Of a DNA stretch of 64,000 bases, positions 35,710 to 35,888 are shown one piece after another; the stretch's first letter is position 1, and each line of letters starts with the position of its first letter. Origin of the DNA: Rhodococcoides corynebacterioides (GTDB lineage: Bacteria; Actinomycetota; Actinomycetes; Mycobacteriales; Mycobacteriaceae); assembly GCF_019834675.1 (NCBI RefSeq), contig NZ_JABUBU010000001.1, forward strand, positions 806,001 to 870,000. Direction: 5' to 3'. The position numbers and the translations under genes were made by a program. Below the pieces are notes generated by a model. That model made no database searches. It worked only from the letters and a program-made list of their open reading frames with translations, and was not told where the DNA came from.

Positions 35710-35788
35710 CCGACGGCGATAACACACCGTGGTTGTTCCCTGCCCGGAAAACGGGGGGCGTGATGGTATGGCAAAAAGCGCTCTCCGC

Positions 35789-35818
35789 TTGACCGCGACA
35801 CACCGCGGCGTGTCTAAT
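35789..35818 (+). promoter_or_regulatory. Candidate whiB2 promoter with WhiA-type GACAC inverted pair in the spacer
   Basis: TTGACC (35789-35794) and TCTAAT (35813-35818) are 18 bases apart. Between them lies GACAC (35797-35801), eight bases, then GTGTC (35810-35814), an imperfect 18-bp palindrome. GACAC is the binding motif reported for WhiA in Streptomyces. A bound protein would cover the core promoter. The implied leader is about 190 nt. Confidence 0.5.
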
Positions 35819-35874
35819 CACAGTCATGTCATTACCGGTTCGGACGGCGGAATCGCTTGCAGCGAACCACCGTT

Positions 35875-35888
35875 CGAACACGTGTTCG
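35875..35888. promoter_or_regulatory. 14-bp palindrome resembling a LexA (SOS) box, whiB2 leader
   Basis: CGAACACGTGTTCG is a perfect palindrome. In context TCGAAC-ACGT-GTTCGC differs from the mycobacterial SOS box TCGAAC-N4-GTTCGA only in the last base. It lies about 125 bases before whiB2, downstream of the candidate promoter. Confidence 0.5.

Follow-up and report, generated by a model that had tools for sequence, protein, structure and literature searches.

The whiB2 promoter of Rhodococcoides corynebacterioides carries a predicted McdR operator and candidate GACAC sites for WhiA and WhiB2

Here we present an analysis of the whiB2 promoter contained in the window, a 64,000-nucleotide stretch of the R. 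corynebacterioides genome. The most conserved block of this promoter is the operator of the MerR-type repressor McdR. On balance, and with some reserve, we favor a reading in which a primary-sigma promoter bears two layers of regulatory sites, the McdR operator and the GACAC sites of WhiA and WhiB2. In the first layer, McdR bound over the -10 element and the start site would block whiB2 transcription. In the second, one or two single GACAC sites in the spacer would most likely bind WhiA together with WhiB2, and WhiB2 would in this way hold down transcription of its own gene at sites within the core promoter; here we infer both the binding and its sign. The case for the McdR layer, made by comparison of sequences, is strong, while direct autoregulation of whiB2 by WhiA/WhiB2 is plausible and would probably be repressive. 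The arrangement suggests that whiB2 is held in check from two sides, by the GACAC sites and by the McdR operator. The site types are familiar, the McdR operator being already known, but their combination in one promoter is new, and our literature search found no description of the GACAC arrangement in the whiB2 promoter of this lineage.

Background

In actinobacteria, the time at which cells divide is set by proteins of the WhiB2 class. In mycobacteria, where whiB2 is essential (review, PMC6282962), the gene is subject to repression by McdR (Rv1830), which binds around the whiB2 start site, as established by EMSA and mutation; mutating the arms of the operator or altering the length of its spacer abolished the effect (PMC9040748). 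An independent study reported a protein-DNA Kd of 0.33 uM for the Mtb McdR at the whiB2 promoter (PMC10336103). In the reverse direction, mycobacterial WhiB2 activates mcdR through its motif, cGACACGc (PMC9040748).

The core of this motif is shared with WhiA, which binds GACAC as a monomer and in either orientation, most GACAC copies in Streptomyces being unbound in vivo (PMC3781837). The review mentioned above also states that WhcD stimulates the binding of WhiA in Corynebacterium and that WhiB2 has been reported to bind its own promoter (PMC6282962).

Results

The whiB2 gene and its core promoter

The features of the whiB2 promoter are collected in Table 1. The encoded protein finds its best matches among WhiB2 orthologues across the genus and the family, and the neighbors of the gene are cofD, cofE, a zincin-like metallopeptidase gene and a phosphomannomutase gene. 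For comparison, about 180 orthologous whiB2 upstream regions were anchored on the dyad element downstream of the -10. Most of these promoters have TTGACC at the equivalent place, with TTGACT as its counterpart in Streptomyces, and a -10 of the form T[CG]TAAT is kept in most loci of the Mycobacteriales, Amycolatopsis and Streptomyces. In the window promoter the two elements are separated by a spacer of 18 bp.

Table 1. Features of the whiB2 locus, in window coordinates
Feature	Position	Strand	Basis or remarks
-35 element TTGACC, whiB2 promoter	35789..35794	+	sequence
Left GACAC, candidate WhiA/WhiB2 site	35797..35801	+	context CGACACAC, 7/8 against the mycobacterial WhiB2 box cGACACGc
Right GACAC (GTGTC on the plus strand)	35810..35814	-	minus-strand context aGACACGc, 7/8 against cGACACGc
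-10 element TCTAAT, whiB2 promoter	35813..35818	+	sequence
McdR/ResR (Rv1830) operator AATCACA-gtca-TGTCATT	35816..35833	.	overlaps the -10 and the predicted start
whiB2 (WhiB/WhcD class) CDS, 157 aa	36013..36486, ATG 36013	+	Pfam Whib, E=1.7e-26

The McdR operator

The dyad used as anchor was noticed in the alignment as an inverted repeat before it was identified as a published operator. In the window it reads AATCACAgtcaTGTCATT, a perfect match to the published AATnACAnnnnTGTnATT with its 12 fixed bases and 4-bp centre, and it begins inside the -10 element, the same place that it occupies in the orthologues. It is the only match to this operator in the whole 4.02-Mb genome, to which the genome-wide tests were applied as pattern searches. 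Among the 180 orthologous promoters, defined as those scoring at least 11/12 for the operator, 165 have all 12 fixed bases; the Streptomyces whiB loci match it at 10/12. Almost every whiB2 promoter sampled from the family thus has the operator proven in mycobacteria.

The cognate regulator is also encoded here. An mcdR orthologue lies two genes downstream of ftsR, in the order gcvH-garA-ftsR-Rv1829-Rv1830, and is 84-90% identical to its orthologues in the genomes of genus g2, which we read as Mycobacterium from whiB2 promoters matching those of named loci. Across the family, mcdR was found in 60 of 61 sampled genomes. Since the operator match is exact and unique and mcdR is present, McdR would be expected to repress whiB2 here, as experiments have established in mycobacteria. 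The earlier note on this DNA had identified the GACAC pair described below, and in doing so passed over this stronger element overlapping the -10.

The inverted GACAC pair

The inverted GACAC-N8-GTGTC that had been claimed between TTGACC and TCTAAT ahead of whiB2 is present exactly as described. The element, GACACACCGCGGCGTGTC, occupies positions 35797-35814, with 8 bases separating the left GACAC from the right GTGTC, whose last two bases are also the first two of the -10. The full WhiB2 box cGACACGc is present at neither of the two copies. As a motif the pair does not stand out by its numbers: the window contains 189 copies of GACAC where 258 would be expected, GACAC-N(4-12)-GTGTC shows no excess there (2 seen, 2.5 expected), GACAC-N8-GTGTC occurs at 13 sites genome-wide, compared with 6 for the reversed control pattern, and GACACACCGCGGCGTGTC itself has a single exact copy in the genome. 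With counts as unremarkable as these, the case for anything more than chance rests on positional conservation in orthologous promoters.

The two halves of the pair behave differently in this respect. Within the genus of the window species, the right GTGTC is kept in 28 of 28 distinct promoters, and it reads GTGTG in several other genera; as part of it belongs to the -10, the promoter by itself can account for this conservation, and WhiA cannot be given sole credit. The left GACAC is kept in 14 of the same 28 promoters, the remainder reading, for example, GACGT, GACGC, GGCAC, AACAC or AGCAG at that place, and it is absent from all mycobacterial (g2) whiB2 promoters sampled. The centre of the pair varies among congeners (CCTGGA, CCTGTG, CCTGTA or CCTGGC), and across orthologues the two half-sites stand 7, 8 or 9 bp apart. 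The offset of the left GACAC from the -35, in contrast, is nearly constant: of 48 loci, 44 have it at 3 bp and the remaining 4 at 2 bp.

Outside the genus, a spacer GACAC is found in genera g62, g63, g65, g71, g75 and g79 and in named whiB2 loci of Nocardia, Gordonia, Prescottella and R. koreensis; the spacers of R. koreensis, Prescottella and g75/g79 contain the exact cGACACGc. When the window genus was removed and one promoter was taken per cluster, 8.2 of 49 clusters had GACAC 2-4 bp downstream of TTGAC, as against an expectation of about 0.4 drawn from the flanking DNA of the same loci, an excess that persists at four clustering thresholds and for which binomial values are only indicative, because the clusters are related by descent. 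With the window genus included, GACAC was present anywhere in the spacer in 12 of 49 representatives, as against 0.9 with shuffled spacers.

Alternative readings of the GACAC pair

Do these observations require that the spacer sites be functional? A simpler reading, which we hold to be possible but do not favor, is that function resides in the core promoter and the McdR operator only, the GACAC pair arising on the right from constraint on the -10 and on the left from neutral spacer sequence. In favor of this reading, many close relatives do without the left GACAC, which is lost in half of the genus; the right GTGTC, universal in the genus, overlaps the -10, and the motifs are no more frequent in the window than chance predicts. 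It is countered by the repeated finding of GACAC 2-4 bp past TTGAC, which in several genera far exceeds both the flank and the shuffle controls, with the adjacent spacer bases differing.

Because several genera have the left half at the same fixed distance from the -35, the action of a GACAC-reading factor, WhiA/WhiB2, on whiB2 is a reasonable proposal, and the preferred two-layer reading retains it. WhiA is encoded in this genome. Against the proposal, GACAC has only 5 bases and, as noted, is mostly unbound in Streptomyces, and our literature search did not turn up any account of WhiA or WhiB2 occupying the whiB2 promoter of a rhodococcus. The earlier suggestion that WhiA, with WhiB2, controls whiB2 survives in this form: the pair is real and lies over a well-conserved promoter, its left half keeps its register with the -35, and some whiB2 promoters of the Rhodococcus group have the exact cGACACGc. 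What found no support is that orthologous promoters keep the inverted pair as one element, given the loss of the left half from half of the genus's distinct promoters and from all mycobacteria sampled, and the three different spacings.

The fixed -35 offset, combined with a variable 7-9 bp distance between GACAC and GTGTC and a dispensable left half, points to two single sites and not to a rigid dimer operator; the variable centre, the variable half-site spacing and the dispensable left half rule the latter out for the GACAC pair. As sites inside the core promoter, they would be expected to limit whiB2 transcription when occupied by WhiA/WhiB2.

The opposite sign has also to be weighed. WhiA and WhiB2 could activate whiB2 from the left GACAC in its fixed -35 register, for instance via sigma region 4, which would amount to positive autoregulation. 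The offset from the -35 is indeed nearly fixed while the spacing on the -10 side varies, several Wbl proteins bind sigma region 4 (PMC6282962), and WhiB2 acts as an activator at the cGACACGc of mcdR (PMC9040748). However, a protein bound between the -35 and the -10, as it would be at this site, usually blocks polymerase, whereas the activating box of mycobacterial mcdR lies near -55, and we consider activation a live but rather unlikely alternative. Least probable is that GACACACCGCGGCGTGTC is the operator of some other, dimeric repressor: it is close to an 18-bp palindrome, with one mismatched pair around a central CCGCGG, and this dyad is near-perfect in the window species and close relatives, but its centre, its half-site spacing and its left half are not maintained and it has no second exact copy in the genome.

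The feedback arm through mcdR

The second half of the published mycobacterial loop was followed at the mcdR promoter. The cGACACGc box is present, as CGACACGC, in 12 of 12 g2 (Mycobacterium) mcdR promoters, about 43 bp upstream of the mcdR -10 in the one case measured. It was found in 0 of 47 mcdR promoters of non-g2 genera, this genome included, where the nearest sequence to the WhiB2 box is CGACAGGC. On this comparison, the action of WhiB2 on mcdR via cGACACGc appears to be limited to Mycobacterium. The box near -55 in mycobacterial mcdR, set against GACAC inside the whiB2 core promoter, suggests opposite signs of action, and since this lineage has no cGACACGc at mcdR and has GACAC at whiB2, the feedback here may be direct.

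We tentatively raise the possibility that negative feedback by WhiB2 has been rewired between lineages, passing through McdR in mycobacteria and acting directly, by WhiA/WhiB2 at the whiB2 promoter, in Rhodococcus and some relatives, with the McdR operator as the constant part. The contrast between the mcdR and whiB2 boxes suggests such rewiring and does not demonstrate it, because it amounts essentially to one clade, Mycobacterium, and is not a statistical test. Were it true, Streptomyces, with its WhiAB-bldO-whiB circuit, would represent a third wiring.

Discussion

The closest known system is the McdR/ResR-WhiB2 loop of mycobacteria (Rv1830 and Rv3260c; PMC9040748, PMC10336103). The two share the operator sequence, its location at the whiB2 -10 and start, and the possession of mcdR; here, however, the mcdR promoter is without cGACACGc and GACAC stands in the whiB2 promoter itself.

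With the WhiA-WhiB co-regulation of Streptomyces (PMC3781837, PMC4850268), the window genome has in common the GACAC core and the presence of both WhiA and a WhiB orthologue, but Streptomyces whiB has no spacer GACAC. The reported direct regulators of Streptomyces whiB are BldD, BldO and BldM, and WhiA is described there as autoregulating whiA, not whiB (PMC5485038). BldO offers a parallel of another kind, in that both systems have a repressor sitting over the -10 and start site at equivalent promoters, although BldO and its site, TGxAATTxCA, differ from McdR and its operator; a BldO-type site was not seen at the window whiB2 promoter. WhiAB activates bldO in a topology like that of WhiB2 and mcdR (PMC5485038), so that the same loop topology recurs with different parts.

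A role for a WhiB2-class protein in assisting WhiA has precedent in a non-sporulating relative, Corynebacterium glutamicum, where WhcD and WhiA act together; the target there is ftsZ (cited in PMC6282962), not the whcD promoter.

Several further features of the region and of related promoters were recorded. Just 5' of the whiB2 -35, at 35760-35790, lies a TGATGGTATTG-like A/T-rich stretch that is conserved throughout the genus and is possibly an UP element or a further site. No known RNA element was matched around whiB2 at the Rfam gathering threshold. The whiB2 leader, of about 190 nt, contains further genus-level conservation at 35834-35880, including ATCGCTTGCAGCGAA with short inverted repeats. 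Elsewhere in the genome, the sole other TTGAC-GACAC-GTGT arrangement is at G000:C3:90243-90271 (L285).

An inverted repeat of the CACCCTCAACTTGAGGTTGAG type is found 5' of mcdR in this genome (L194:3215-3245) and in most genera, Mycobacterium not being among them. It resembles the published FtsR motif AACCCTAAAGTAAAGGTTGAGGGTA, and control of mcdR by FtsR is possible on this resemblance. FtsR was also considered as a binder of the whiB2 dyad and was rejected, its published motif being unlike the dyad. Finally, in promoters outside the family (L068, L069, L071 and others), an ACAC-NN-GTGT-like repeat, for example GACACAGGTGTAATCACA, is located right at the whiB -10.
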